A stretch of 42,712 nt of DNA from a virus: positions 1 to 42,712 of IMG/VR virus record IMGVR_UViG_3300020176_000029. One strand, given 5' to 3'. Under the pieces are notes generated by a model. That model saw only the letters and a list, made by a program, of their open reading frames with translations, did no database searches and had not been told where the DNA came from. The stretch's first letter is position 1, and each line of letters opens with the position of its first letter. Positions 1,566-29,639 of the stretch are shown here, piece by piece. Position numbers and translations under genes: made by a program.

Positions 1566-4184
1566 ATGGCCACTTCTATCCTAAAATCCACTTTTAGAAC
1601 AAATCTTGTTAAATCGTTGCTATTCGAAATCATTTCGAAGACTTCGCGTTACCACTATGTGTTCGGACGCAAGCAGCGGTGGCCAGCAATCGCAGATCCA
1701 GATACGGGGGAATCAATTTCTAGTGAATTTAATCCCCCGTCTGTTAGCGACTCATTTCCATATGAGCTAGAGGCGAGAAATGATATTATCTTTTCTAAAG
1801 CTTTAGATGCTAACGATGTGGCAGCAGTTATCGAACGCTATGATTGGTCTTCAAACATTGTTTATGACATGTATGACGAATATAGTGCAGATAATGTTGC
1901 AGCTTCAGGTGCCACATCATTAGCAACTGCAATTTTCTATGTAGTTACTGACGAATATAACGTATATAAATGTCTCGATAATAATCGTGGCGCAAACTCT
2001 ACAGTTAAGCCTACAGGCACTGCTAGAGAACCTCAAGAGTTATCTGATGGATATATTTGGAAATACATGTATACCATCCCAATTTATCTACGTAACAAGT
2101 TCATGACGTCTTCAGTTATTCCTGTTGCCACGTCATTGACCACGCAATTCTACTCTAACGGTAGTATTACTAGATACACGATCCAAAACCGTGGTAGTGA
2201 TTATGTACGCAGAGATTCATACTCGGTTGAGAAATTAGTTCCGGTCCGTGGTGGATCTGGATACTCTGATGGCGACTTGGATATTACGTTCCCATTTCCA
2301 CCTGAACAGGCAGTGGCAACTATTTCAGCAAACGTTGACGGAACACTAGACCAGGCATCAATTGTTATTGGAAACAGTGGACACCGTTATAATGACCTAT
2401 CTGCTCCATTAGTTACAATTAGTGCTCCAGATGAAGTTGGTGGTACTCAGGCATTAGCATACGCAACTGTTGTTGATGGCGATGTTACCGCAATCACATT
2501 ATCTGAAGTTGGTAGCGGCTATACACAAAACCCGTTAATTACAATTGAAGTCCCACCTGGTGGAGTTTCAGAAGGTATTAAAGTTAGAGCCGTGGTTGAT
2601 GCAATCGTTATCATTAATGGTACGGTTGAGCGAATCATCATGCAGAATTCTGGAGCAGGTTATACTACTCCACCGGTCCCAATTATCACTGGCGAAAACG
2701 GTTCTGATTTTGAAGTCAAGCCGTATTATATAAAAGACACATTCACTGATATCGTGGTTGATGGAGATGGATATATCCCCGATAATCCGTACAGTATCAA
2801 TAGTATCACTATTGAAGATGGTGGTATATTCACTACAAAACCTGCCGGTGAAACGTTAATTACTTTCCCTAATCCAAACATTGCTGGAACAAGACCTGTT
2901 GTTAAGGTTGAATTTGGTACGATATTGGATGAAGGCGTTACGAAGTACACAGTAACTGATGTACATATTATAGATCCAGGACAAGGTTATACTTCTCCAT
3001 TTTATTGGAGATCAAGTACCGCTAGGAATAATGTCACATCAGATGCATTAACTACAGCTCCTAACGTTGAAGCTCCATTAATACTAAACCTTAACGTTGA
3101 AGCACAGCGCAATAATGCTCAATTTGCTCCTCTGATTAATAACTCAGGTGAAATCGAAGCTATTCTAGTAAATGAACCTGGTGCAGCATACACATATGCT
3201 ACATTAAACGTGGTGTCTAAAATTACAACAGAGACTGGCGTCAAAACACTTGGATCTGATATTGTTGCATCGCATCCTAATTTCAGTCAAGCTACAATTC
3301 AAACTGACTTTAATGTGGGTAGTATTGACAGTAAGCAATCTGATGTAGAACTTGGTGCAATCGATGGCGCAATCTATGCGTGTAGAATTGTATCAGGAGG
3401 AAATGGATTTAGTTCAAATACAGTATTAACCGTTGATGGCGACGGATCTGGTTGTGAGCTAGTTCCAACTATTGGTCCTGGTGGTTCAATTATTGATGTT
3501 GCGGTAACCAATCCAGGTAAAAATTATAAGAGTGCATCTGTCGTGATTACTGGAAACGGTAGTGGTGCTCAGATTGTACCAATTATTGCTCCTAAGGGAG
3601 GGCATGGTAAAGATGCCATCGATGAATTGTATGCTAGTACGTTATTATTCTCAAGCAAAATTTACAATGAGAAGATTAATAATCTAGTTCCACTGACATC
3701 AGGCTATCGCCGTGTTGCTATGTTGAAAAATATTCGTGAATATTCTTCAGATTCAATCTACCAAAATGCGACGGGTACTTCTCTAATTACATGTATCATT
3801 TCTAAAAATGATGTAAACATAGCTTCAGTATCTAATATAAATATATCACTAGATCAATATTTGTATTTTGGTGATTATGCTAATGAATTTTTAATTGTTG
3901 AAAAGTACGAGACGGATGATAGTTATCATTTGTTAGTATTACCAACAAACACTTCTTATGTTCCAATTGCCGGTAGTTCTCTATCGCTATTTAAAACTTC
4001 AGAAGGTGCGTATAAAATTGATTCGTCATCGACGATAAGCAATAGATATAACATGAGTATCACCGGTGTTATATCCCCAAATATCAATAAATACTCTGGA
4101 GAGATGATCTATCTTGAAAATAGAACTTCATTCTCAGCTTCTGAAGACCAAGCAGTAGCAATTTCAACATCTATTAAATTCTAA
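1566..4184 (+). CDS. 8: Baseplate wedge protein, T4 gp8-like, with large beta-repeat insertion
   Basis: An 872-residue protein recognisable as gp8 from both ends. The N-terminal part has 'STFRTNLVKSLLFEIIS', a 'YNVYKCLDN' strand and 'LSDGYIWKYMYTIP' (about residues 157-170), matching T4 gp8 'VYRCLD' and 'GDGYVWEYLFEIP'. The C-terminus has 'KYSGEMIYLENRTSF' and ends in an alternating beta strand, matching T4 'HSGEMIYMENRPPI' near its end. gp8 is part of the baseplate wedge, where it helps hold the peripheral baseplate together and change shape on infection. T4 gp8 is 334 residues. The extra length here is an insertion from about residue 208 to 690, containing some ten 'GxGY' beta repeats followed by a linker. 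The start has only a weak GAG-type ribosome site 19 bases after the upstream stop. Family assignment is firm; the role of the insertion is unknown. Confidence 0.88.
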   Translation: MATSILKSTFRTNLVKSLLFEIISKTSRYHYVFGRKQRWPAIADPDTGESISSEFNPPSVSDSFPYELEARNDIIFSKALDANDVAAVIERYDWSSNIVYDMYDEYSADNVAASGATSLATAIFYVVTDEYNVYKCLDNNRGANSTVKPTGTAREPQELSDGYIWKYMYTIPIYLRNKFMTSSVIPVATSLTTQFYSNGSITRYTIQNRGSDYVRRDSYSVEKLVPVRGGSGYSDGDLDITFPFPPEQAVATISANVDGTLDQASIVIGNSGHRYNDLSAPLVTISAPDEVGGTQALAYATVVDGDVTAITLSEVGSGYTQNPLITIEVPPGGVSEGIKVRAVVDAIVIINGTVERIIMQNSGAGYTTPPVPIITGENGSDFEVKPYYIKDTFTDIVVDGDGYIPDNPYSINSITIEDGGIFTTKPAGETLITFPNPNIAGTRPVVKVEFGTILDEGVTKYTVTDVHIIDPGQGYTSPFYWRSSTARNNVTSDALTTAPNVEAPLILNLNVEAQRNNAQFAPLINNSGEIEAILVNEPGAAYTYATLNVVSKITTETGVKTLGSDIVASHPNFSQATIQTDFNVGSIDSKQSDVELGAIDGAIYACRIVSGGNGFSSNTVLTVDGDGSGCELVPTIGPGGSIIDVAVTNPGKNYKSASVVITGNGSGAQIVPIIAPKGGHGKDAIDELYASTLLFSSKIYNEKINNLVPLTSGYRRVAMLKNIREYSSDSIYQNATGTSLITCIISKNDVNIASVSNINISLDQYLYFGDYANEFLIVEKYETDDSYHLLVLPTNTSYVPIAGSSLSLFKTSEGAYKIDSSSTISNRYNMSITGVISPNINKYSGEMIYLENRTSFSASEDQAVAISTSIKF
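2188..3580 (+). repeat. About ten degenerate 'GxGY' beta repeats inside the gp8-like gene
   Basis: The encoded segment repeats a hydrophobic strand, then Gly-x-Gly-Tyr or similar, then a Thr/Pro turn and a second strand. Examples are 'GGSGYSDGDLDI', 'GNSGHRYNDLSAPLVTI', 'EVGSGYTQNPLITI', 'NSGAGYTTPPVPII', 'DPGQGYTSPF', 'EPGAAYTYATL', 'GGNGFSSNTVLTV' and 'NPGKNYKSASVVI'. Spacing is uneven (about 35-65 residues), and the DNA copies are well diverged, so this is an old expansion. A stacked beta structure projecting from the baseplate is a reasonable guess. Confidence 0.75.
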
Positions 4185-17350: not shown

Positions 17351-20209
17351 ATGACCGGAACAGTAATCAAGATTAAGTATAGTACCGTAACAGCCCAACC
17401 GGCAGACGATACATTAGAAATTGCAGAATTAGCGTATTCCTATATATCAGGATCCAATACGTTATTCATTGGCGCAGATGACGGCGCTGGTGGAACTACT
17501 GCCATTAAGATTGGCGGTCAAAAATACGTAAATTATTTAGACCATGCCAAAGGCACACTAACCGCTAGTGCAGCAATCCTGGTAGACTCCAATAAGTGGG
17601 TCGATGAGATCATCACTGGAGGATTAACACTAACAACTTCTGGTGGTTCGGGTACTCAAAAGGTTACTTCAATCAGTACGGAAATCGACGGGACTTCCAC
17701 AAACGGTCAGCTAATTACTGCTCTTGCCGTTAAGAACTACGTTGATACTACCGCAGCAGCAGTTGATCTTGGTGAACTAAATGACGTTACGATCACTAAT
17801 GCCACCGGCGCTCAGATTCTTTTATACGATAGCATTAACAGCGAATGGGTAAACCGTGGTTTATCTGGTGATGTTACTATCAACGAAAGTGGCGTTGCAG
17901 ATATTGCAGCAACTGGCGTTACTACTGGTTCCTTTGGTTCGGCCACATCTATTCCAACATTTACTGTTGCCGCTGACGGTCGATTGACTGCCGCTGGTTC
18001 TGTTAATGTTGCAACAAGTTTAAATGTTCGTGGTGATGATTTAACTACCACGACAGTAGATCTTTTAACTGATACACTTTCTATCGGTGGTGGCACTGGT
18101 ATTAGTACAACCACTAGCGCAGATAAAATTACCGTTAAGTTAAATGACACTTCAGTTATTGCTGGGGCATATGGTTCTACTAGTGCTATCCCAACTTTCA
18201 CGGTTGATCAACAGGGTCGTTTGACTTCTGCTGGTAGTGTATCCATTACAACATCATTGAGTATCCAGGGTGATACAGGCACTGATACTGTATCACTTGC
18301 CAATGATACGTTAGACTTTGCTGGCGGAGTTGCTTTAACCAGTAGTGTTACTGATAATGTAGTAACATATAACTTAGTTAATACTTCGGTTACTGCAGGT
18401 GCTTATGGTTCAGCGACAACCATACCAACATTTACCGTTGATGCGCAAGGTCGTTTAACTGCTGCAGGAAGCGCATTAGTTTCTACAACCACATCATACG
18501 CTGGCGATAGTGGCTTAGGTAATATTACTACTGGCAGTGCACTAACAATTGCTGGTGGAGTTGGTCTAACAACTGAATACGATACCGGTACATTAACAGT
18601 TGATCTAGATAATACAGCTGTAACTGCTGGATCTTACGGTAATGCAACAACCATACCAACGTTTACAGTTGATGCACAAGGTCGTTTAACTGCCGCTGGA
18701 ACTGTGCTTGTTTCAACTACTACTTCTATTGCCGGTGATACTGGTTCAGGTAGTGTTGCAACAGGAAGTGCAATCACTTTTGCCGGTGGAACTGGTTTAA
18801 CTACTGATTGGGACACAAATAACGATACGTTGACAGTCACACTAGATGATACCGCAGTTACTGCTGGTACATATGGTGCGGCCACGACGATTCCTCAATT
18901 TACTGTTGATGCTCAAGGTCGTATTACAAATGCAACCACGGTAAGCATTAATGCTAACTCATATGGAACGTTCTCGGTCGATCAGGCCGGCACATTCACT
19001 TGGGCAGATTCTGGTACTACTGTTGCTTCCGGTAATGCCGATACAGTTAGATTTGTTTCTGGTGAGGGTATCAACCTATGGGTAGATGGTACCAATGATG
19101 CAGTTAAGTTTGATAACACCGGCGTTCTTTCGAATGTTGCTGGTACTCATATTACCGTTTCTAGCTCAACCGGCAACGTAACAATTGGTACTGATGCCAC
19201 TTCAGCAAATACTGTATCAACAATTGTTGCCCGAGATGCTTCTGGTGACTTTGCTTCTAATAAAGCAACATTAAATGAATTGCAAGTTGATGATATTAAT
19301 ATCAACGGCAATGTTATTTCAACGACCACTACTGATGAAAATCTTCAGTTGACCGCTAACGGTGATGGTATTGTTGAAATTACTTCAGATACCAATATTA
19401 CTGGTGGTCTTACTATCACCGGCGATTTGACTGTAACTGGTACATCTACTCAGATTAATGTACAAGAATTGGTGGTTGAAGACCCGATCATTTACTTAGC
19501 GTCTGCTCAAACTCCTGGCGTTGATACAACAACCGATATCGGTTTTGTTGGAAACTATATCTCTGGTGGTGTTTATGCTCACACAGGTTTGGTACGTCAT
19601 ACGGCAGACGGCATTTGGTATCTATTTGACCAATACACGCCAGAAGTTGACGAGAATGGTAACGTTGTAGATATTGCAGATGCATCGTTTAACATTGCAT
19701 CACTTAATGCTAACGTTGTTGGTACACTTACTGGTGTCGCTGAAACAGCCACTAAACTTCTAAACTTACGTACAATCTCACTATCAGGTGATGTCGTTGG
19801 TTCATTAGAATTTGACGGTAGTGCTGATGCAAATATGGCTGTCACAATCCAGCCAAACTCAGTAGCCCTAGGAACAGATACTACAGGCAACTATGTTGCA
19901 ACACTTGCCTCATCTAACGGTGGTCTAACAGTTACTGATTCTGGTTCAGAATCTTCTGCAGTTTCAATTGAACTTGATACCACAAATTCTACATTCACCA
20001 ATGGTGCAAAAGATGCATTTGGTGCAAGTATTAATGGCGGAACATACACCAACATTGCACTTTCATACAATACCGGAACTAAAGTTGTCACTGGATCAGT
20101 CAATACTGCCACAACAGCCGTTAAAGGTATTGCATCGTTTAGTGCTGATAATTTCACCGTCACTTCAGGCGTAGTAACTGTTTCTAGAATTGAAGGTGGA
20201 ACGTTCTAA
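17351..20209 (+). CDS. Repetitive tail fibre protein, 'DAQGRLTAAG' repeats
   Basis: A 952-residue fibre. The N-terminus has 'EIAELAYSYISGSNTLFIGA', a domain common at the start of phage fibres. Residues about 186-540 hold five copies of an about 77-residue repeat centred on 'GATTIPTFTVDAQGRLTAAG'-like text. From about residue 694 there is 'QINVQELVVEDPIIYLASAQ' and a 'GGVYAHTGLVRHTADGIWYLF' type block, a domain also present in the 1796-residue fibre. The end ('VSRIEGGTF') is a hydrophobic/glycine tip. These features are typical of long beta fibres of T4-like cyanophages. The start directly follows the upstream stop, with GGAGG about 10 bases before it. A late promoter and a hairpin follow the gene. 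It is probably a trimeric rod; the receptor is unknown. Confidence 0.78.
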   Translation: MTGTVIKIKYSTVTAQPADDTLEIAELAYSYISGSNTLFIGADDGAGGTTAIKIGGQKYVNYLDHAKGTLTASAAILVDSNKWVDEIITGGLTLTTSGGSGTQKVTSISTEIDGTSTNGQLITALAVKNYVDTTAAAVDLGELNDVTITNATGAQILLYDSINSEWVNRGLSGDVTINESGVADIAATGVTTGSFGSATSIPTFTVAADGRLTAAGSVNVATSLNVRGDDLTTTTVDLLTDTLSIGGGTGISTTTSADKITVKLNDTSVIAGAYGSTSAIPTFTVDQQGRLTSAGSVSITTSLSIQGDTGTDTVSLANDTLDFAGGVALTSSVTDNVVTYNLVNTSVTAGAYGSATTIPTFTVDAQGRLTAAGSALVSTTTSYAGDSGLGNITTGSALTIAGGVGLTTEYDTGTLTVDLDNTAVTAGSYGNATTIPTFTVDAQGRLTAAGTVLVSTTTSIAGDTGSGSVATGSAITFAGGTGLTTDWDTNNDTLTVTLDDTAVTAGTYGAATTIPQFTVDAQGRITNATTVSINANSYGTFSVDQAGTFTWADSGTTVASGNADTVRFVSGEGINLWVDGTNDAVKFDNTGVLSNVAGTHITVSSSTGNVTIGTDATSANTVSTIVARDASGDFASNKATLNELQVDDININGNVISTTTTDENLQLTANGDGIVEITSDTNITGGLTITGDLTVTGTSTQINVQELVVEDPIIYLASAQTPGVDTTTDIGFVGNYISGGVYAHTGLVRHTADGIWYLFDQYTPEVDENGNVVDIADASFNIASLNANVVGTLTGVAETATKLLNLRTISLSGDVVGSLEFDGSADANMAVTIQPNSVALGTDTTGNYVATLASSNGGLTVTDSGSESSAVSIELDTTNSTFTNGAKDAFGASINGGTYTNIALSYNTGTKVVTGSVNTATTAVKGIASFSADNFTVTSGVVTVSRIEGGTF
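17908..18957 (+). repeat. Five tandem copies of a ~231-bp fibre repeat
   Basis: Each copy encodes a 'TAGAYGSATTIPTFTVDAQ'-like turn plus a variable strand block. Copies begin near 17914, 18145, 18382, 18610 and 18847, a period of 228-237 bases (about 77 residues). A related copy occurs near 21616 in the next fibre. The DNA copies differ at many third positions. Confidence 0.75.
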
Positions 20210-20216
20210 AATATGA

Positions 20217-20224
20217 TATAAATA
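20217..20224 (+). promoter_or_regulatory. T4-type late promoter (TATAAATA)
   Basis: An exact late consensus 7 bases after the stop of the 952-residue fibre gene and 66 bases before the start at 20291. The expected initiation point is near 20230. That leaves a leader of about 60 bases containing the hairpin at 20250-20271. It would drive the long unit 20291-29614. Confidence 0.8.
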
Positions 20225-20249
20225 TATGTAAGTAATTTGTTGAAACAAA

Positions 20250-20271
20250 AGGGGTTCTCTTTAGAACCCCT
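20250..20271 (+). terminator. Perfect 9-bp hairpin with tetraloop (terminator or leader structure)
   Basis: AGGGGTTCT (20250-20258), loop CTTT, AGAACCCCT (20263-20271). On the + strand only a weak T-rich tail (CTTAT) follows. On the - strand the same stem is followed by TTTTGTTT, a better intrinsic-terminator tail. It may end + transcripts from the upstream fibre, stop antisense transcripts, or stabilise the 5' leader made from the promoter at 20217. The ribosome site AAGG lies 5 bases past the stem. The structure is certain; its role is not. Confidence 0.65.
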
Positions 20272-20290
20272 CTTATAAGGTCAATACCTA

Positions 20291-20788
20291 ATGGCAACCA
20301 GTATTATACATAAGAAGTCTTCCGTTCCTGGGAAGATTCCATCAACTACTCAGCTCGAGTATGGTGAACTTGCCGTAAACACGGCAGACGGCACGATTAG
20401 CCTCAAAAATGATCCAGGTACAGGTGAACAAATCACCACGATTTATTCCGCAACGGAAAATACAATCGCAATCGATACCACCGGATACTCAAACTCCACA
20501 GCATCAACTTTAAAAGACGTACTAGACGATCTAGACGGAGCAATATCCAATGTTACTAGTGGAGGAGTCGTAGTAGACCCTAATAGTATCTTGGGAAGTG
20601 GAACTGCAATCGATCCGTATTATGTAACACTAGACTCTGTGCTGTCTGCAGGTAATACCACACAATCAAATTTAACGGTTAATGACTTAACGGTCGAAGG
20701 AACATTTACCGTTGATGGTATATCAGTTACACAGATTGACGGCGCAACTCTAGATGATATCGTTGCGCTCAGTATAGCCTTAGGATAA
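20291..20788 (+). CDS. Fibre-like protein with 'GELAVNTADG' N-terminal domain
   Basis: A 165-residue protein. The N-terminus 'KKSSVPGKIPSTTQLEYGEL' continues 'AVNTADGTISLKNDPG', a very common N-terminal module of phage fibres and receptor-binding proteins. The remainder contains 'STASTLKDVLDDLDGAISNV' and a C-terminal 'NLTVNDLTVEGTFTVDGISV' strand repeat like that in both long fibres. It ends in a short helix ('LDDIVALSIALG'). It is short for a complete fibre, so it may be a connector or a separately encoded fibre base. It is the first gene after a late promoter and hairpin, with an AAGG site about 10 bases before the start. Structural role likely, partner unknown. Confidence 0.65.
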   Translation: MATSIIHKKSSVPGKIPSTTQLEYGELAVNTADGTISLKNDPGTGEQITTIYSATENTIAIDTTGYSNSTASTLKDVLDDLDGAISNVTSGGVVVDPNSILGSGTAIDPYYVTLDSVLSAGNTTQSNLTVNDLTVEGTFTVDGISVTQIDGATLDDIVALSIALG

Positions 20789-20795
20789 TATAAAC

Positions 20796-21134
20796 ATGGC
20801 AAATAAATTTAAACTTCATACATTTGACGGTTCTTCTACGTTTGCAAATACGCAGATGGCAGTATATACCGCACCAGCATTAACTACTACAGTTGTTATA
20901 GGCTTAACGATAAGCAATATTACACAAGCAACTTTAGTGTATATTGATGTAAAAGTAAATAACGTCGATGGTGATCAAGTATTTTTAGTTAAGGGCGCGC
21001 CTGTTCCTCAAGGCGGTTCGATTGAAATCATGTCGGGAAACAAGATAACACTGGAAGAAGGTGATGGCATCTTGGTATATTCAGATACAGCATCATCAAT
21101 AGATACAATCGTAAGCGTAATGGAGCAGTCATAA
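20796..21134 (+). CDS. Small conserved virion protein
   Basis: A 112-residue beta-rich protein. The region 'GAPVPQGGSIEIMSGNKITL' followed by 'EEGDGILVYSDTASSIDTIV' matches a small protein found near fibre and neck genes of many tailed phages. In those, a 'PxPxGGSxELMxGNKIVLxxGD' pattern is typical. Its function is not established to my knowledge; a decoration or connector protein of the tail is plausible. AGGA lies about 10 bases before the start. One base separates its stop from the ATG of the 1796-residue fibre, so co-translation with that fibre is likely. Confidence 0.68.
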   Translation: MANKFKLHTFDGSSTFANTQMAVYTAPALTTTVVIGLTISNITQATLVYIDVKVNNVDGDQVFLVKGAPVPQGGSIEIMSGNKITLEEGDGILVYSDTASSIDTIVSVMEQS

Positions 21135-21135
21135 T

Positions 21136-24100
21136 ATGGCACAATATATCGGTAATTCACCAGCAAATATTCTCTTACAAACTAAGAGACAGACATTTAC
21201 TTACATTGCTACTGCTGGTCAAACAATTTTTTCCGGAACTGATGCGTTCTCTCAGTCCTTCGTAGCTCCATCATTAGCGCAAATATTGGTTTACGTTAAT
21301 GGATCATTGATTGAACCGCATGAATATTCTAATACAACATCCACTCTAACACTAAACGCTGGTGTTAGTGCCGGTGATACTGTAGTTGTTTTCACTGAAA
21401 TAGAAGCTGCTTTAGTATCGTCGTATACTCGCGAAGAGACGTTAGATTTAATCAACTTGACTCTTTCTAGTGGATTTGATACATTATTTTCAGCAAAAGA
21501 TACCGATGATCTCGCAGAAGGCACTAACCTATACTATACCGACGCTAGAGCGCAAGGTGCTATCTCAACAGATGCAACACTATCATATTCAGATGGTGTA
21601 GTTTCTATGCCTCTATCTGGCGTTACTGCCGGGGAATATGGTTCTGCAAGTACAGTTCCTGTTATTACAGTTGATGCTCAGGGTCGCATTACATCCGCAT
21701 CTACGACCAATGTTGCTGGAGTTAGCGGGTTCTCATATGTACCTTCAACTAACACATATACTATCACAACTTCAGCCGGAACTAGTTTCGATGCTACTGG
21801 TGATTTAACTTCATTCGATACTGGTGATCTTGCAGAAGGCACTAACTTATATTATACTGATGCGCGTATTAACGATTTCCTTGCCACCAATGGATACGAT
21901 TCTGCCATTGCTGCCAAAATTAACTCAGCTGATTTTACTTCAACAGCAGATACTTGGATTAATACTAAAAATTCTGACGTCCTCGATGAAGGCGTTACTA
22001 ATTTATACTATACGGATACACGAGTTGGTGATTACCTTGACAACAATGGATATGATACTGCGGCAAATATTGTAGCGTCAATCGTAGACACTGCTCCTAC
22101 TACACTAGATACTCTAAACGAACTTGCGGCAGCTTTGGGCGATGACCCTAACTTTGCAACTAGTATCAGTGATGCTATCGGATTGAAGGCTAACACTGCT
22201 GATTTAGGAACTGCCGCAGCACAAAATGTTGAATACTTTGCAACTGCTGCTCAAGGTACTCTTGCTGATAGTGCATTGCAATCAGTTGCATTTACTGATC
22301 TTACAACAACTCCAACGACAATCTCTGGATACGGTATTACTGATGCGTTCGATGGTGCTTATGCAAGTTTAACTGGCGTTCCTACTTTAGGAACAGCTTC
22401 TGCTGAAAATGTAGAATACTTTGCCAGCGCAGCGCAAGGTGCATTGGCGGATAGCGCATTGCAATCAGTTGCATTTGCAGATCTTACTTCAACCCCAACG
22501 ACACTTGCAGGATATGGTATCACTGATGCATTTGATGGTGCATATTCAAGTCTAACAGGTACTCCGACGACACTTGCAGGATATGGTATTACTGATGCTC
22601 CAGCATCATTGACTGATCTTGGAATCACAGATGGTACTATTGGTCAGATCCTCACCACTGACGGAGCTGGTGGATTTACATTCGAAGATGCTGCAGAACC
22701 TTTAGTAGTTTCAGGTACTGCACCAGCATCACCAGAAGAAGGTGCATTGTGGTTTGATAATGTCACTACTGGTCAACTCTACGCATATGTAGGTACTTCA
22801 TGGTTGTCAACAGCTGGATTGACAACGTTAAGCTTCTCAAGTGTTGGTGATCTATCTGATGTAGATATTACGACATCTACTCCAACTGCAGGACAAGCGT
22901 TAGTTTGGGATGCAGTAAATTCTAAGTTTATTCCAGGAGAGTCTTTCAGTCAATCTGATTTTAATACCGCATTTGCAGCTAATAGCACAGATGATTTGGA
23001 TGAAGGTACGACTAACCTATACTATACGGATACTCGTGCAGACGCTAGAATTACTCTTGCATCTAGTAATTATGCCACCGCTGCGCAGGGTGTATTAGCA
23101 GATACTGCTTTACAGACAGTCGCATTTGCGGATCTCACGACAACTCCAACCACGATCGCTGGTTATGGTATCACTGATGCCTTTGATGGTGCGTACTCAA
23201 GTCTGACTGGCACTCCAACCACGATCGCTGGTTATGGTATCACTGATGCCTTTGATGGTGCGTATTCAAGTTTAACTGGCACTCCAACTTTAGGAACAGC
23301 TTCTGCTGAAAATGTCGAATACTTTGCTACAGCTGCTCAAGGCGCTTTGGCAGATACTGCTTTACAGACAGCTGATTTAACTGGTTATGCCACTGAAACA
23401 TTCGTGAATAACGCAGTAGCTGCAAAAGATAATACAGACGAGATTACAGAAGGCACGACTAACCTATACTATACAGATGCACGCGTCGAGACAAAGATTG
23501 ATGCATATGTAACTGGTGGAACTGGTGTTACAGTTACATCTGGCGAAATCGCAATTGGTCAAGACGTTGCAACTACTGCTGACGTTATCTTCAACGACAT
23601 TTCTGCCAACGGAAACGTTGTTATTGACGGCAACTTAACTGTTTCTGGCACAACTGTTACTATCAATGCTACCGACCTTGCCGTTGAAGATAACATGATA
23701 TATCTCAACTCAGGTAGTGCCGTTGCCAATCCTGATCTTGGTATTGCTGGTAACTATAATGATGGTACATACGCACATGCAGGCGTCTTCCGCGATGCTA
23801 CTGATGGAGTATGGAAGTTCTATGATGGATACACACTAGAACCAGATGCATCTGTTTTCATTGACACATCACATGCCTCATTCAATTTAGCATCAGTTCA
23901 GGCAAGTTCTTTTATTGGCGATGTTACTGGCACAGTTTCATCTTTATCTAATCATACCACTACAGATCTAACCGAAGGAACTAATCTTTATTATACTGAT
24001 ACAAGAGTTGGTACATATCTAACAACAAACTCGTACGCGACAGAAACGTTTGTTGGTTCTGCGATCACAACTGCATCTAGTAACTACGCTACAGCTGCAC

Positions 24101-26526
24101 AAGGTGCATTAGCAGATAGTGCACTCCAAACAGTTGCTTTCGGCGACCTCACATCGACCCCAACAACATTGGCTGGATATGGTATCACGGATGCGTTTGA
24201 CGGTACTTATGCAAGTTTAACTGGAGCTCCAACTGTTCCATCTGCATTGACGGATCTTGGAATTACTGACGGTACTATCGGACAGATTCTTACTACAGAC
24301 GGTGCCGGTGGATTTACATTCGAAGATTCTACTGGCGGTGTTGTCGTATCAGCAACAGCCCCTACATCACCGGCAGAAGGTGCACTATGGTTTGATAATG
24401 TTACAACCGGCCAACTATATGCGTATGTTGGAACTTCCTGGCTATCAACTGCCGGTCTAACGACGTTAAGTTTCTCAAGTGTTGGCGATTTATCTGATGT
24501 AGATATTACTTCAGCCGCTCCTACTGATGGTCAAGCATTGGTTTGGGATAATGCCAATTCTAAGTTTATTCCTGGCGATGTTTCTGTAGACTTTACTGGT
24601 TATGCAACAGAAACATACGTTGGTACAGCAATATCTACAGCATCTAGCAATTACGCTACAGCTGCACAAGGAACTCTTGCTGATAGTGCATTGCAAGCAG
24701 CCGATTTGACTGGATATGCTACAGAAACTTATGTCGGTACAGCAATATCTACAGCATCTAGTAATTATGCGACTGCGGCTCAAGGTACACTTGCCGATAG
24801 CGCATTACAGGCTGCCGACCTAACTGGTTATGCCACGGAAACATATGTTGGTACGCAGATTGCTAACTTGGTTGACACTGCGCCATCAACATTAGATACA
24901 TTGAATGAGCTTGCTGCAGCATTGGGAGACGATCCTAACTTTGCTACAACAATTACAACTTCATTGGGAGAAAAAGTAGATCTTACTGGAACTACTACTG
25001 CTGTTATTCCATTCTATTATGCAGATCAGACATCATTCCCAAGTGCAGCAACATATCATGGCGCCATAGCACACAGTCATGCAGATGGTGCAATGTATTT
25101 TGCACACATGGGAACGTGGGTTGAGCTTGCAAATTCAACTGATTTAGTTTCTGATGTTAGCGGATTATCTGATGTCGATCTAATAACAACACCTATCGCA
25201 GACGGAAATACTTTGGTGTGGAATGCTTCTTCTGGAACATTTATTCCAGGAGATCATGCAATCTCGGCAGTAGGTTACTCCAACGATTACGATGATCTAG
25301 ATAACAAACCAACTCTATCAACAGTAGCTGGAACTGGTGACTATAATGATCTGATCAATACACCTACTGTTCCAGCTTCTATAGATGACTTGACTGATGT
25401 AGATACTTCTACATCGGCTCCTTTAGATGGTCAGTCTTTGGTTTGGAGTTCGACAACTTCTAAGTGGAGACCAGTTACCGTATCCGGTGGCACTGGTGGT
25501 GGTTCTAGTTTAGTTCCTACTCAAGACACGGCACCTGTAGGTCCTGCTGATGGTCAGTTATGGTATGACACAGACTCTGGAACATTGTTTGTATATTACG
25601 ACGATGGTTCTACTGCACAATGGGTCCAGGTCGCAAACCCATCTTCTGGTGGTACTGTTTCAATTTATCTCAATGATCTACATAACGTAGACACAGAAAC
25701 CAATCCTGCTGCTGATGGACAGGCATTGATTTGGGATGCTGCTAATTCCATGTGGATTCCTGGAGACTCATTCAGTGAGACTGATTTTAATACTGCATTC
25801 GGTATCAAGAGTATCGGTGGATTGGGTGATGTCGATTTAGCGACGACTCCTCCTGCAGATGGTGACACACTAGTTTGGGATGGTATCAACTCTAAGTTCG
25901 TTCCAGGAGCCGGTGGTGGCGGTGGTGGTGGTGCATCTATCACCACATCAGAGACTGCTCCTACAGAACCAGTAGAAGGTGACATGTGGTTCAACTCTGC
26001 GACATTCGCATTGTTCTTATATTATAACGACGGTGATTCTACTCAATGGGTTCAGATCAACGATGCTGGTGGTGCTGCTGGAAATGGTCTAGTTCAGATC
26101 TCTTCCACTCCTCCTGCAAATCCTTCATCTGGTGATTTGTGGTACGACGATGCATCTACTGGAACTTTGTTGATATACAACGGCGAAGTATGGGTATCTA
26201 CCGCAGATGGTGGCGGTGCTGGTAATCAATCAGGTTACTGGAGTGAAATTAATACCACTACTTTCGATGCGATCAGTGGATCTAAGTTGTTTGTGGATAG
26301 TTCTACTAATCCAGTTCAAGTTAATCTTCCTGCTAATCCTTCTATGGGTGAAGAAGTTTATATCGTTGATGCGACGGGAACTGCTGAAACAAATGCAATC
26401 ACGGTGTCAAGAAACGGAAGTAAGATTCTAGGTCTTGACGAAGACTTGATCATGGATGTTAACAATGCAGCTGTTCTACTTGCATACTATAACACAACTC
26501 GTGGTTGGATCGTGTTAAGCAAATAA
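21136..26526 (+). CDS. Very long repetitive tail fibre (1796 residues)
   Basis: Built almost wholly from short shared modules. There are six 'EGTNLYYTDAR' motifs, seven 'ATAAQGALADSALQ' motifs and five 'GYGITDAFDGAYSSLTG' motifs. There are also two 'TLDTLNELAAALGDDPNF' motifs and six 'LSDVDITT..LVWD..KFIPG' modules. Several 'EGALWFDNVTTGQLYAYVG' modules include two identical long blocks. Residues about 834-937 match the 'VED..IYL..GNY' block of the 952-residue fibre. Poly-glycine hinges lie at about 1592-1599. The C-terminal domain ('TNPVQVNLPANPSMGEEVYI' and 'NTTRGWIVLSK') is a head domain familiar from T4-like cyanophage fibres. GGAG precedes the start. It is probably a long flexible trimeric fibre. 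Confidence 0.8.
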   Translation: MAQYIGNSPANILLQTKRQTFTYIATAGQTIFSGTDAFSQSFVAPSLAQILVYVNGSLIEPHEYSNTTSTLTLNAGVSAGDTVVVFTEIEAALVSSYTREETLDLINLTLSSGFDTLFSAKDTDDLAEGTNLYYTDARAQGAISTDATLSYSDGVVSMPLSGVTAGEYGSASTVPVITVDAQGRITSASTTNVAGVSGFSYVPSTNTYTITTSAGTSFDATGDLTSFDTGDLAEGTNLYYTDARINDFLATNGYDSAIAAKINSADFTSTADTWINTKNSDVLDEGVTNLYYTDTRVGDYLDNNGYDTAANIVASIVDTAPTTLDTLNELAAALGDDPNFATSISDAIGLKANTADLGTAAAQNVEYFATAAQGTLADSALQSVAFTDLTTTPTTISGYGITDAFDGAYASLTGVPTLGTASAENVEYFASAAQGALADSALQSVAFADLTSTPTTLAGYGITDAFDGAYSSLTGTPTTLAGYGITDAPASLTDLGITDGTIGQILTTDGAGGFTFEDAAEPLVVSGTAPASPEEGALWFDNVTTGQLYAYVGTSWLSTAGLTTLSFSSVGDLSDVDITTSTPTAGQALVWDAVNSKFIPGESFSQSDFNTAFAANSTDDLDEGTTNLYYTDTRADARITLASSNYATAAQGVLADTALQTVAFADLTTTPTTIAGYGITDAFDGAYSSLTGTPTTIAGYGITDAFDGAYSSLTGTPTLGTASAENVEYFATAAQGALADTALQTADLTGYATETFVNNAVAAKDNTDEITEGTTNLYYTDARVETKIDAYVTGGTGVTVTSGEIAIGQDVATTADVIFNDISANGNVVIDGNLTVSGTTVTINATDLAVEDNMIYLNSGSAVANPDLGIAGNYNDGTYAHAGVFRDATDGVWKFYDGYTLEPDASVFIDTSHASFNLASVQASSFIGDVTGTVSSLSNHTTTDLTEGTNLYYTDTRVGTYLTTNSYATETFVGSAITTASSNYATAAQGALADSALQTVAFGDLTSTPTTLAGYGITDAFDGTYASLTGAPTVPSALTDLGITDGTIGQILTTDGAGGFTFEDSTGGVVVSATAPTSPAEGALWFDNVTTGQLYAYVGTSWLSTAGLTTLSFSSVGDLSDVDITSAAPTDGQALVWDNANSKFIPGDVSVDFTGYATETYVGTAISTASSNYATAAQGTLADSALQAADLTGYATETYVGTAISTASSNYATAAQGTLADSALQAADLTGYATETYVGTQIANLVDTAPSTLDTLNELAAALGDDPNFATTITTSLGEKVDLTGTTTAVIPFYYADQTSFPSAATYHGAIAHSHADGAMYFAHMGTWVELANSTDLVSDVSGLSDVDLITTPIADGNTLVWNASSGTFIPGDHAISAVGYSNDYDDLDNKPTLSTVAGTGDYNDLINTPTVPASIDDLTDVDTSTSAPLDGQSLVWSSTTSKWRPVTVSGGTGGGSSLVPTQDTAPVGPADGQLWYDTDSGTLFVYYDDGSTAQWVQVANPSSGGTVSIYLNDLHNVDTETNPAADGQALIWDAANSMWIPGDSFSETDFNTAFGIKSIGGLGDVDLATTPPADGDTLVWDGINSKFVPGAGGGGGGGASITTSETAPTEPVEGDMWFNSATFALFLYYNDGDSTQWVQINDAGGAAGNGLVQISSTPPANPSSGDLWYDDASTGTLLIYNGEVWVSTADGGGAGNQSGYWSEINTTTFDAISGSKLFVDSSTNPVQVNLPANPSMGEEVYIVDATGTAETNAITVSRNGSKILGLDEDLIMDVNNAAVLLAYYNTTRGWIVLSK
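23143..23280 (+). repeat. Recent 69-bp tandem duplication in the long fibre gene
   Basis: Two direct copies (23143-23211 and 23212-23280) differ at only 3 of 69 bases, all silent, and share 52 identical bases in a row. Each codes for the 23-residue unit from Thr-Pro-Thr-Thr to Ser-Leu-Thr-Gly. A partial third copy starts at 23281. Confidence 0.9.
24589..24816 (+). repeat. 114-bp tandem repeat, same protein but diverged DNA
   Basis: Copies 24589-24702 and 24703-24816 encode 38-residue units that differ at one residue (Phe/Leu) but carry more than a dozen silent changes. A central block of about 25 bases is identical. A partial third copy starts at 24817. Confidence 0.88.
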
Positions 26527-26540
26527 TCTAGGATAATAAA

Positions 26541-29372
26541 ATGCCATCATATTCAAATATAGTTTCTACAGCACTAAGTTCGTCGAATGTCGCAGGAAAA
26601 TCTCTGGTATTTTCCACAATCGCTCAATTACCGCTGAGTGGAAATGAGGCGGGGTCGATAGCATATGTACAATCAAATGGCAGATTGTACATATGGAACA
26701 ATGGATGGTATTCTATTGGTATCGTTAATAGTAGTCCTATCGTGACTGGTAACTATGACCCATTTACTGCATTTGAGAAAGATGGAACTCCAATTGTTTT
26801 GGAGTTAGAAGCTACTGACCCAGAAGGAATTCCATTAACTTGGTCATACTCAATTACCAAAGGATCTCTTGGGGATACCGCAACAGTTGTTCAAGATGAT
26901 AATATATTCACCATAACTCCTAGTCAAAATGAATCCGATGAAGGTGAGTTTGAAATAACTTTTGCAGTGTCAGATGGAGTAGCGATTACAGCTCTTCCAT
27001 TAACATTCAGATTAATCTTTAAAGATAACTGGCGTCATGGAGCTTCAGAATATGATACTACCACATACCCTAGCGGAGTACAATTTGGTGGATTGAATGA
27101 AGCTAGAGCGATGGATATAGACGGTAATAATATTATTATAGGCGATAGTGGTACAAGTTCAGGTGCTGGAAAGGCTTGGATATATTCCAGTGATCCATTC
27201 GTACAAGTCAGAGAATTGATCTGCCCTAGCCCAGGAGCATACACAAGCTTCGGATTTGCTACCGCAATATCTGGAGACTATTGCGCTGTGGGACAATATG
27301 GTTATAGCTCCAATTCAGGCAGAGTTTACATATATGATGTAGATACGGGCACGTTAATTCATACATTAGAAAATCCAAATGATTATTACACAACTGCAAA
27401 TGATTATTTTGGATTTACCCTTTCATTAGACGGTGACACGCTTGCAGTATCAGCACCTTTTGAAGATGATGCAACTAGTTCGACTAGTGGTTCAGGCAGA
27501 GTTTACATATATTCAGTTTCTTCTGGCGAACTAGTTCATACTCTAAATAATCCCAACCCTACTGGGACTACTGTTGACGACAATTTCGGCAGAAACTTAA
27601 AGGTAACTGGTAATTATGTAATTGCATCTTCGTACGAAGATGTCGGTGCTACAAATAGCGGCGGCATACATGTATTTAATGCAACAACGGGAGAACTGCT
27701 GTATTCATTGAGTGCGCCCCCAGGATATGTAGAGGCATCCAGCCTATTTGGATATCCGATGGATGCTGATGCTTCATCTGATAGACTAGTGTCAACTAAT
27801 CGTTATGGAAATAATTTTATTCATGTATTCGAATTATCAACAGGAACTTTGCTACGGACATTTCCTAGACATCCAGAAACTAATACTAATCAGTGGGGAA
27901 CTGTATTAGCTATAAGTGGTTATACGATTATAATTGGGTTTGTAGAAGCTTCTAGTGCTGCGTACTGGAGAAACGTCTTTGTATATCATTCAGAATCTAC
28001 ACCGATTGAAACCAACGAGCCTTACGACGGAACTTATAATTTATATGGATTACTTCCAAATTCACTCATCTATAACACTGCGATAAACAACTGGGAGTTC
28101 AACAATGGAACCCTGTTACTCGCTCAAGGTGGACAAAGTGTCAGGATGATTAAAAATGTTGGAGTGCTTAACAGTTATACTATAGATAATCCTAATGGTT
28201 ATAATACTCCTAATAGTGATTACTTTGGATACTCGGTCGGAATATCTGGTAAATACGCTATCGTCGGTGCTTATTATGAAGATGATGCTGGTGGCAGTGC
28301 TTCAGGTAAAGCATATATTTTAGATGTATCCACTGGAAATTTAATTTACACAATAGATAACCCAAATGCTTATGGTACAGGTGCTAATGATTACTTTGGA
28401 TACTCAGTAGCAATATCTGGTAACTATGCTATCGTCGGTGCTTATTATGAAGATGATGCTGGTGGTACTGAGTCGGGTAAAGCATACATCTATAAAACCA
28501 CTAACGGAACTTGGTCGGATACGATTCTACTCCATACACTAGATAACCCTAATCCTTATAGTACAAGTCAGTTTGAGCTTTTTGGTCGAGAAGTTGCGAT
28601 ATCCGGTAACTATGCGATTGTTGGTGCGTATAATGAAGATGATGCTGGTGGCAGTTCTTCAGGCAAATCCTATATTTTTAATGTTACTACTGGTGCGCTA
28701 GTTCATACATTAGATAACCCAAATGCTTATGGTACAAGTGCTAGTGATCAATTTGGATTTTCTGTTGCAATATCTGGTAACTATGCTATTGCTGGTGCTC
28801 CGTATGAAGATGATGCTGATGGTACTGGTTCAGGTAAAGCCTATATCTTTGACGTATTAACTGGAGATCTAGTTCATACACTAGATAACCCAAATGCTTA
28901 TGGTGGCAGCACTAATGACTACTTTGGTTACTCAGTAGCAATATCTGGTAACTATGCTATCGTCGGTGCTTTTTCAGAAGATCTTAATGGTACTACTTCA
29001 GGTGTGGCATATATCTTTGACGTAACAACTGGAATATTGCTTCATACATTAGATAATCCCAATTCTTATGATACAGGCGCCAGTGATTCCTTTGGATTTT
29101 CTGTTGCAATAGATGGTAATTATGCAGTTGTGTCAGCTAAATATGAAGATACTGCTAATGGTCTTTCAAACGGCTCTGCATATGTATTTGATGTTAGGAC
29201 CGGAGAACTTCTTGGAAAGTTAGTAAACCCAACTAGCTTGAATGTTTCGGATACTGCAAACGGAATGCCGGTTGGAATATCAGGATCATATGTTATTTCT
29301 GGACATTCACAGGGATATACCAACGGCGTTTCTAATTCAGGATATGTTCGCATTTGGGAGGCTAATTATTAA
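26541..29372 (+). CDS. Tail surface protein with FG-GAP-like beta-propeller repeats
   Basis: A 943-residue protein. Residues about 30-62 form the adaptor 'LPLSGNEAGSIAYV' with 'GRLYIWNNGWYSIGIVN'. Residues 72-165 are a cadherin/Ig-like domain ('GTPIVLELEATDPEGIPLTW', 'FEITFAVSDGVAI'), shared with the proteins at 38905 and 40662. From about 170 on there are roughly 13 propeller blades of 50-60 residues, such as 'DYFGYSVAISGNYAIVGAYY' followed by 'EDD...SGKAYIFDVTTG'. These are FG-GAP-like repeats, best known from integrin alpha chains and bacterial surface proteins. A linker at about 490-548 separates a degenerate first set (six blades) from a regular second set (seven blades). AGGA precedes the start. 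A role in binding a host surface ligand is inferred. Confidence 0.72.
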   Translation: MPSYSNIVSTALSSSNVAGKSLVFSTIAQLPLSGNEAGSIAYVQSNGRLYIWNNGWYSIGIVNSSPIVTGNYDPFTAFEKDGTPIVLELEATDPEGIPLTWSYSITKGSLGDTATVVQDDNIFTITPSQNESDEGEFEITFAVSDGVAITALPLTFRLIFKDNWRHGASEYDTTTYPSGVQFGGLNEARAMDIDGNNIIIGDSGTSSGAGKAWIYSSDPFVQVRELICPSPGAYTSFGFATAISGDYCAVGQYGYSSNSGRVYIYDVDTGTLIHTLENPNDYYTTANDYFGFTLSLDGDTLAVSAPFEDDATSSTSGSGRVYIYSVSSGELVHTLNNPNPTGTTVDDNFGRNLKVTGNYVIASSYEDVGATNSGGIHVFNATTGELLYSLSAPPGYVEASSLFGYPMDADASSDRLVSTNRYGNNFIHVFELSTGTLLRTFPRHPETNTNQWGTVLAISGYTIIIGFVEASSAAYWRNVFVYHSESTPIETNEPYDGTYNLYGLLPNSLIYNTAINNWEFNNGTLLLAQGGQSVRMIKNVGVLNSYTIDNPNGYNTPNSDYFGYSVGISGKYAIVGAYYEDDAGGSASGKAYILDVSTGNLIYTIDNPNAYGTGANDYFGYSVAISGNYAIVGAYYEDDAGGTESGKAYIYKTTNGTWSDTILLHTLDNPNPYSTSQFELFGREVAISGNYAIVGAYNEDDAGGSSSGKSYIFNVTTGALVHTLDNPNAYGTSASDQFGFSVAISGNYAIAGAPYEDDADGTGSGKAYIFDVLTGDLVHTLDNPNAYGGSTNDYFGYSVAISGNYAIVGAFSEDLNGTTSGVAYIFDVTTGILLHTLDNPNSYDTGASDSFGFSVAIDGNYAVVSAKYEDTANGLSNGSAYVFDVRTGELLGKLVNPTSLNVSDTANGMPVGISGSYVISGHSQGYTNGVSNSGYVRIWEANY
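28185..29330 (+). repeat. Seven regular FG-GAP-like propeller blades
   Basis: Consecutive units of about 150-190 bases each encode a 'LDNPNAYGTSASDYFGYSVA' start, 'ISGNYAIVGA', an 'YEDDAGG' acidic turn and a 'SGKAYIFDVTTGxLVHTL' strand. Seven units would close one beta-propeller. DNA identity between several units is high, so expansion or homogenisation is fairly recent. Confidence 0.75.
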
Positions 29373-29631: not shown

Positions 29632-29639
29632 TATAAATA
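29632..29639 (+). promoter_or_regulatory. T4-type late promoter (TATAAATA)
   Basis: An exact late consensus in the 56-base gap between the genes at 29372 and 29671, 31 bases before the ATG at 29671, with GAGGG (29658-29662) in between. It would start the unit reading the large structural protein at 29867 and the modular proteins downstream. Confidence 0.8.

Follow-up and report, generated by a model that had tools for sequence, protein, structure and literature searches.

Locus and features

The window, i.e. the whole stretch of 42,712 nucleotides analysed here, is a 42.7-kb viral record, and a 136.5-kb contig (G001) comes from the same phage. Its baseplate-type protein (1566-4184) matched 539 phage records, 376 of which are Synechococcus phages, with 26-29% identity among the matches listed; judged from these matches, the phage is T4-like and distant from every record. 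The features around the leader are as follows.

17351-20209, + strand: upstream fibre-type gene, 952 aa, with PHROG tail fibre matches
20217-20224, + strand: T4-type late promoter TATAAATA, recognised by sequence, with a predicted RNA start near 20230
20236-20249, + strand: HP0, a weak upstream hairpin in the fold of the leader, 5 bp, loop UGAA
20250-20271, + strand: HP1, a perfect 9-bp hairpin with the loop U-CUUU-A, resembling the U-NNNU-A family described below
20277-20280, + strand: AAGG, probable Shine-Dalgarno bases, 10 nt before the AUG, three of the four bases within HP2
20278-20289, + strand: HP2, AGGUCAAUACCU, AGGU-CAAU-ACCU, 4 bp, ending one base before the start codon
20291-20788, + strand: fibre-type gene that opens the unit, for a 165-aa protein with the N-terminus MATSIIHKKSSVPGK, ATG at 20291
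20796-21134, + strand: gene for a 112-aa protein, second in the unit
21136-26526, + strand: gene for a large fibre protein of 1796 aa, assigned by protein matches, in the unit starting at 20291

The upstream fibre gene has its stop codon 7 bases before the promoter. The unit that begins at 20291 extends to about 29614, and the following TATAAATA is at 29632. According to PMC2988020, RNA begins roughly one helical turn away from the TATA box. A protein of 109-114 aa, like the window's 112-aa protein in size and position only, follows the homologous fibre gene in P-SSM2, S-SRM01, Sf-CH8, S-T4, S-CAM9, S-PRM1 and S-SKS1. Pfam showed no domain in the three window proteins scanned (cut-off 0.05), and a blastn comparison of the region with phages gave no DNA match.

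In the window, TATAAATA occurs six times against 5.3 expected, which is the chance level; all six copies are on the + strand, and four stand in short gaps before genes. The contig G001 has 24 such sites, 23 of them on one strand. Ten of its intergenic sites have a gene start nearby; of the ten leaders, that of the fibre gene exceeds all others in length (66 nt versus 5-43 nt), and no other has a stem of at least 6 bp. One more intergenic site, which has no nearby gene start, also has a 6-bp stem. When the looser ATAAATA was used, 3 of 13 intergenic leaders of this contig had a stem of at least 5 bp.

Hairpins in the leader

HP1 is composed of AGGGGTTCT (20250-20258), CTTT (20259-20262) and AGAACCCCT (20263-20271). 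The perfect 9-bp stem with a CTTT loop that the initial annotation placed between the late promoter and the gene is thus present at 20250-20271, and its statement that all transcripts from 20217 should bear the hairpin in their leader holds as well. As RNA, AGGGGUUCU-CUUU-AGAACCCCU has at least five Watson-Crick pairs, a 4-nt loop ending in U and a U-A closing pair, as do the members of the U-NNNU-A family; five of the nine pairs in the stem are G-C. The loop is 28 nt from the ATG, at the low edge of the family range of 28-38 nt, and a KKSS-type fibre gene lies downstream. The spacer between the promoter and the stem is 25 nt, which is unusual compared with the cyanophage leaders. The initial annotation mentions neither HP0 nor HP2. 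HP0 may be incidental. HP2 includes most of the likely Shine-Dalgarno bases and is the counterpart of the cyanophage GGUANAUACC.

The fold of the window's RNA leader has a z of about -2.7, and 2 of 200 shuffles were equally good in each of two runs. The window has six perfect stems of at least 9 bp, whereas 20 shuffles had 1.45 on average and never more than 4; the five besides HP1 are all within genes. Because six such stems were found with 1.45 expected, the stem of HP1 by itself is weak evidence; its location is better evidence than the stem alone, and the comparison with other leaders is the real evidence. A perfect inverted repeat (13 bp, 8-base loop) lies at 26662-26695 within a 943-aa gene.

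Leaders of the closest relative and of the protein kin

The locus L244 was reached via the 1796-aa protein (54% identical), and its 165-aa protein is 57% identical. Its leader contains, in order, ACTCCCCT-CTTT-AGGGGAGT, GGT-CTTT-ACC and the ATG, with the stem rebuilt from different bases. Between HP1 and its closest distinct relative (L480), 9/9 pairs are kept, 6/9 are changed on both sides and the CTTT loop is the same, in a comparison of two sequences only. Compensatory base changes in relatives, which the initial annotation had proposed as a check, are accordingly found in one relative (6/9 pairs). In the closest relative, TATATATA stands in place of the window's TATAAATA.

A search with the protein pair of the window and the relative yielded 46 distinct leaders among the best 80 loci. 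In 27 of these, the best hairpin has the loop CTAT (25 leaders) or CTTT (2, the window and L480) and lies 28-38 nt before the ATG. Within 110 bases, NTAAATA was present in only 6 of 45 distinct kin leaders (best 80 loci). Since most of the nearest-kin leaders are without a T4-type promoter, the hairpin, as far as these loci indicate, is associated less with one type of promoter than with fibre genes sharing one type of N-terminus. Furthermore, all 42 TCTATA hairpins with at least six Watson-Crick pairs (L478-L557, near-copies included) lie 21-32 nt before a MATKIIHKKSS gene. An alignment of 21 of these kin leaders (the second alignment, A5), made up of 20 of the 25 CTAT hairpins and L546 (CCAT), has 93.1% of its cells paired and a covariation of 0.705 versus 0.259 when shuffled. 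Five CTAT hairpins sharing the 26-nt stretch of a kept row were omitted from it, as were the window and L480, for a blind model.

The window's own clade has two distinct leaders in all among the best 80 loci. A search with the 112-aa protein (best 80 loci) led mostly to other gene neighbourhoods, and in its 51 distinct leaders the element was seen by eye only in the window's leader and that of its relative. When the stem was scanned for with any loop, nine contig stretches were found, two of them from the window's own phage. A scan for CTTT-loop hairpins before GGTCNNTACC gave at least 125 places in at least 120 stretches; the stem has at least four pairs in five, and the layout of the window was not seen by eye among those listed.

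Leaders of cyanophages

In P-SSM2, S-B05 and similar cyanophages, the order is promoter, hairpin, GGUANAUACC and start codon. A homologous fibre gene was examined in 12 records, either named or from single cells. Nine of them have the hairpin and GGTNNNNACC after a late-promoter-like NTAAATA, and the stem sequences differ among most of the nine; in S-CAM9 and S-PRM1, only CTAAATA precedes the stem. No such hairpin was found in Sf-CH8, S-T4 and S-SKS1, although the neighbouring genes are alike and TATAAATA is present in all three. The initial annotation had named relatives that lack the stem while keeping the promoter and gene order as evidence against its proposal; S-T4 and S-SKS1 are such relatives, and the leader of Sf-CH8 has no stem of five Watson-Crick pairs, so that the hairpin is dispensable in some lineages. 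Of 38 phage records, 19 were examined, some being duplicates or near relatives of a single phage, and the hairpin with GGTNNNNACC was seen by eye in 11 of the 19; in six more phage records (L643-L648) the element was not seen by eye.

A scan of IMG/VR with the pattern ATAAATA...GGTANATACC gave at least 120 stretches. Among the matches listed, a fixed rule retained 40 distinct leaders before fibre-type genes, and a looser rule gave 60 distinct leaders, the window and named phages included. The loops in the 56 leaders with a scored hairpin are ATAT in 32, ACAT in 12, AAAT in 4 and AGAT in 2. The stem starts 4-8 nt past NTAAATA in 40 of these 56 leaders.

An alignment of 50 of the 60 leaders (A2) has 99.3% of its HP1 cells paired, with 117 cells changed on both sides, and a covariation of 0.666 versus 0.130 when shuffled. 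L017, L138, L170 and L195, without five Watson-Crick pairs, were dropped from it; the window's copy (L001) was omitted on purpose, and L132, L149, L177, one duplicate and L164, whose second stem is longer, were also left out. HP2 is invariant in the 50 leaders, since the search pattern that found most of them had a fixed HP2; in leaders picked by protein, HP2 shows stem variants of its own.

Two other late leaders carry stems of different kinds. Near 100797 of S-CAM9 (KU686205.1), a leader of 73 nt has AGAGGGGTC-TTCG-GACCCCTCT before an ORF beginning MANPLLNQVSNRNF. In L281 and L282, before an ORF beginning MASTKATELAQLSRK, TATAAATA is directly followed by a long-looped 7-bp stem, after which come seven T.

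Survey of leaders chosen by protein

Loci were also fetched by protein, with the N-terminus of the downstream protein as the query, from two viral samples (best 80 each) and 36 bacterial genome contigs. The 196 loci gave 145 distinct leaders, with at least 80 bases upstream required of a locus. A hairpin was counted if it had at least five Watson-Crick pairs, a loop NNNT and a T-A closing pair. The U-NNNU-A hairpin, mostly U-[C/A]UAU-A, was found in 64 of 145 fibre leaders and 8 of 233 leaders of other genes at the same loci, under a loop rule set after the leaders of both viral samples, i.e. most of the leaders counted, had been viewed. Two of the eight control hairpins precede second MATKIIHKKSS genes. 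The hairpin is absent from 81 of the 145 leaders. In the single-hairpin test for each viral sample, the counts were 17/68 and 29/46 versus 2/139 and 3/50 in controls, with shuffle means of 1.0 and 0.4; in the genome-contig sample, fetched after the rule had been fixed, they were 5/33 and 0/48. As to the queries, 10 of 20 rows in A1 came from hairpin-bearing loci found by the leader pattern, and in A7 (genome contigs), 7 of 9 rows besides the window and L480 came from hairpin-bearing loci. Among the best hairpins with a 4-nt loop, a T-A closing pair was seen in 62 of 81 fibre leaders and 17 of 70 controls, and the loop is [C/A]-T-A-T; the U at the third base of the window's HP1 loop is a minority type among the 62 (5/62).

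Two hairpins in tandem were present in 30 of the 145 leaders and in 1 of the 233 controls, with a shuffle mean of 0.14 per set. In five of the 30 (L504, L526, L535, L545 and L551), the first partner is a TGGT...ACTA stretch ending the preceding gene, which may be a coincidence. After clustering at 65% identity, one hairpin was found in 43 of 98 clusters and two in 25 of 98. The loops of HP1 and HP2 are ATAT/ATAT in L640, CTAT/CTAT in L611, CTTT/CTTT in L244 and CTTT/CAAT in the window, and other pairings exist. The contigs L611 (a Methylophaga MAG) and L640 (a Porticoccaceae MAG), in which tandem hairpins precede fibre-type genes, were binned as bacterial and are perhaps of prophage or phage origin.

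Folded strand and transcription termination

Cells with G-U outnumber those with A-C by 17:1 and 31:1 in the two alignments. Such a bias is not expected of antisense RNA or of a DNA cruciform, and the sense mRNA is thus the folded molecule that was conserved. A palindrome acting at the DNA level was rejected on the same bias and because 15 of 47 ANAT loops in A2 match this motif on one strand only, the sense strand.

One explanation of the family is that the promoter, the hairpin and the fibre N-terminus are a travelling cassette, a tag for recombination or shuffling, whose likeness reflects shared descent more than an RNA function. The link between the hairpin and the N-terminus is tight in the second family, including extra genes in L553, L554, L556 and L557 away from the fetching gene, and it persists with and without T4-type promoters, as such a cassette would predict. 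However, descent alone would maintain neither the pairing during sequence change nor the G-U bias on the sense strand, and we consider this explanation unlikely.

Termination was the other use considered for the stem, either of read-through from the upstream fibre gene or of antisense RNA, as a terminator or attenuator. The plus-strand tail of the window, CTTATAAG, has 3/8 T and lacks the direct U-tract of an intrinsic terminator; the plus-strand tails have 1-3/8 T in all 21 leaders of the second family and at least 5/8 T in only 7 of 51 cyanophage leaders. The T-rich tail is better on the minus strand, as initially annotated, with 6/8 T in the window; it has 5/8 T in the relative and at least 5/8 T in 24 of 51 cyanophage leaders, where the minus-strand T come from the A-rich promoter. 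These tails and the five G-C pairs of nine in HP1 would suit a terminator. In the second family, however, minus-strand tails with at least 5 T of 8 occur in only 3 of 21 leaders, the G-U bias is on the sense strand, and a terminator acting on the plus strand would halt the unit's own late transcripts too. A consensus terminator scan lists HP1 on neither strand, although by hand the minus-strand tail seems to satisfy the rule of the scan. We therefore regard a terminator or attenuator as improbable. Sense-strand termination was set aside because most members of the family have only a weak U-tract on the plus strand, and the suggestion of a terminator for read-through or of partial attenuation is likewise not supported. 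A block on antisense RNA, also suggested at first, agrees with the T-rich minus-strand tails of the window and of 24 of 51 cyanophages, but it became less likely with the 3/21 of the second family and the sense-strand bias. Among the four roles initially proposed, a function in the leader has gained support, whereas termination or attenuation on the sense strand has not.

A terminator-like fibre leader does occur in L561 (Limnohabitans phage DC31), and it counts for termination as a use of such a position: about 50 bases before 1501 there is a hairpin followed by six T, unlike the family.

Covariance models and databases

Two covariance models were built, R1 from the 50 cyanophage leaders and R2 from the second set of 21, with the window in neither. 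In the window, HP1 ranks first with R1, at 14.2 bits versus 8.5 for the next site and a weak E of 0.096, and also with R2, at 14.6 bits versus 9.0 for the next separate site and a weak E of 0.16. Filtered searches with the models missed the window's copy. A filtered R1 search of 11 records found a strong site in seven (six training sequences and one copy of one) and nothing in G001. The L244 leader was found by neither model, perhaps owing to the opposite purine-pyrimidine polarity of its stem, and R2 had no hit among 62 loci from the first protein sample. Because of these two results, the loop types are, at the level of these models, separate families, which speaks against a simple single family. 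Rfam 15 gave no match in 19900-20700 of the window up to an E of 5 and none in 11 related loci up to an E of 0.5.

It could be argued that HP1 is a chance hairpin without function in the window, beside a genuine family elsewhere, given the other perfect 9-bp stems in the window's genes, the modest model scores and the single other distinct leader of the clade. A chance hairpin would hardly share its place and loop with the relative and differ from it by compensatory changes, nor rank first under two models built from different sets, and this explanation seems very improbable.

Possible function of the hairpin

HP1 seems to be a genuine RNA structure that evolution has maintained, and it is similar to the U-NNNU-A hairpins before the tail-fibre genes of many aquatic phages. 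Judging from sequence comparison, it may well represent, in the window, a cis-acting RNA element conserved in the leaders of fibre mRNAs, with a post-transcriptional, operator-like role and a putative binder of the loop. Stems vary by compensation while the loop (U-NNNU-A) is nearly fixed. Since the stem is free and the loop and its closing pair are fixed, the loop is probably what is recognised. Its reader would be a protein, either encoded by the phage (perhaps the fibre protein itself or an assembly partner) or of the host, and it would act post-transcriptionally. Most likely it would expose or mask the start site in HP2 and thereby fix how much fibre each message yields. The second, weaker hairpin of the same loop class often lies nearer the start codon, and that of the window holds most of the AAGG. 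That HP1 and HP2 share a loop class suggests that one factor may meet both.

A broader proposal, which we offer as a tentative one with the chances rather against it, is that the tandem U-NNNU-A is a general RNA signal of host-recognition fibre genes across unrelated transcription systems. One protein, plausibly the N-terminal domain of the fibre or an assembly partner, would read both loops and balance synthesis against assembly, and the hairpin would move with the N-terminal domain in fibre swaps. Pairing between the loops of HP1 and HP2 was rejected by reasoning, as ACAT or CTTT loops cannot pair with themselves. GUANAUA resembles the eukaryotic PUF site, and this was taken as a coincidence.

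The coat protein operators of MS2 and PP7 are short hairpins with a conserved loop at a gene start, with a bulged A and an ANYA loop. HP1 is like them in being a short hairpin with a conserved loop at a gene start; MS2 and PP7 are RNA phages, and the gene there is a different one. The PeSL (promoter early stem-loop) cassettes of T4-type phages are reportedly a promoter and a stem-loop between genes and have been proposed to be mobile. They share with the window a promoter and stem-loop between genes, but their promoters are early and the window's is of the late type. The nearest model appears, by analogy, to be the T4 gene 43 translational operator, and what binds, which way the effect goes and how assembly is coupled to it are our inferences. 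According to PMC3014915, operators of the T4 gene 43 type have the loop UAAC or UAAA before the polymerase gene. The T4/RB69 gene 43 operator thus belongs to a polymerase gene, whereas the window has a fibre-type gene and the loop CUUU, and HP1 is not of that operator type; the U-NNNU-A family likewise differs in gene and loop, is often in tandem and has a putative binder. Other structured RNAs of T4-like cyanophages, namely wcaG, manA (in leaders) and PhotoRC-II, are tied to metabolic or photosynthesis genes according to passages of PMC2864571, unlike the hairpins of fibre leaders.

A serious rival is a role in RNA stability, which may coexist with the operator role; a hairpin at or near the 5' end would protect the mRNA by slowing decay initiated there, and its loop would matter little. 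Such a hairpin is known near the 5' end of E. coli ompA mRNA, where it slows decay from the 5' end and its loop sequence is unconstrained. The cyanophage hairpins are likewise near the expected 5' end of the RNA, which is what makes this rival serious, but the loop is constrained only in them. Counted from the promoter, the stem is 4-8 nt past NTAAATA in 40/56 cyanophage leaders versus 25 nt in the window, and the former would place it near the RNA start expected from the passages of PMC2988020. Stems of at least 5 bp also occur now and again in other late leaders of the same phages (3/13, 4/35, 6/37 with one counted twice, 4/31 and 4/21, the first three including the fibre leader), as general protection would predict. 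Protection leaves unexplained the fixed loop, the U-A closing pair, the tie to one type of gene and the second hairpin near the start codon, and the window's stem starts about 20 nt inside the RNA. As the sole explanation it appears a minority possibility, and under the operator reading the hairpin near the 5' end may simultaneously slow RNA decay.

Except in a few models, little is known, to our knowledge, about what determines how much tail fibre a phage particle receives. A leader RNA with a conserved loop and a variable stem at the fibre genes of cyanophages and of other phage contigs would provide a handle on this amount, and the cultured carriers P-SSM2 and S-B05 make loop and stem open to testing. 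The hairpin could also serve as a marker to spot fibre genes in unannotated viral contigs. The literature background was drawn in part from PMC2988020, PMC3037559, PMC3014915, PMC2864571 and PMC9964418; within the part of the literature covered, in titles and the openings of abstracts, no description of hairpins before phage fibre genes was found, which does not prove novelty.

Other leader RNAs

A leader with the order promoter, hairpin and GGTATATACC is present at L085:4557-4627 before a 703-aa protein of another type (MSKFLSERKKNLRIGIASYTDD), for which Pfam gave no match; this one contig speaks against the reading of the element as one of fibre leaders. A different leader RNA, GGGC-[stem-loop]-YTGACCC with varied inner stems and loops, precedes fibre genes in part of L149-L171 and in L483, L484 and L487, the last three having it double in tandem. 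It had no Rfam match in L149, L153, L484 and L487, and our guess is that the contigs with this leader are from freshwater. Near 4737 of L414, several GGGTCTTTACCC-like stretches follow one another.
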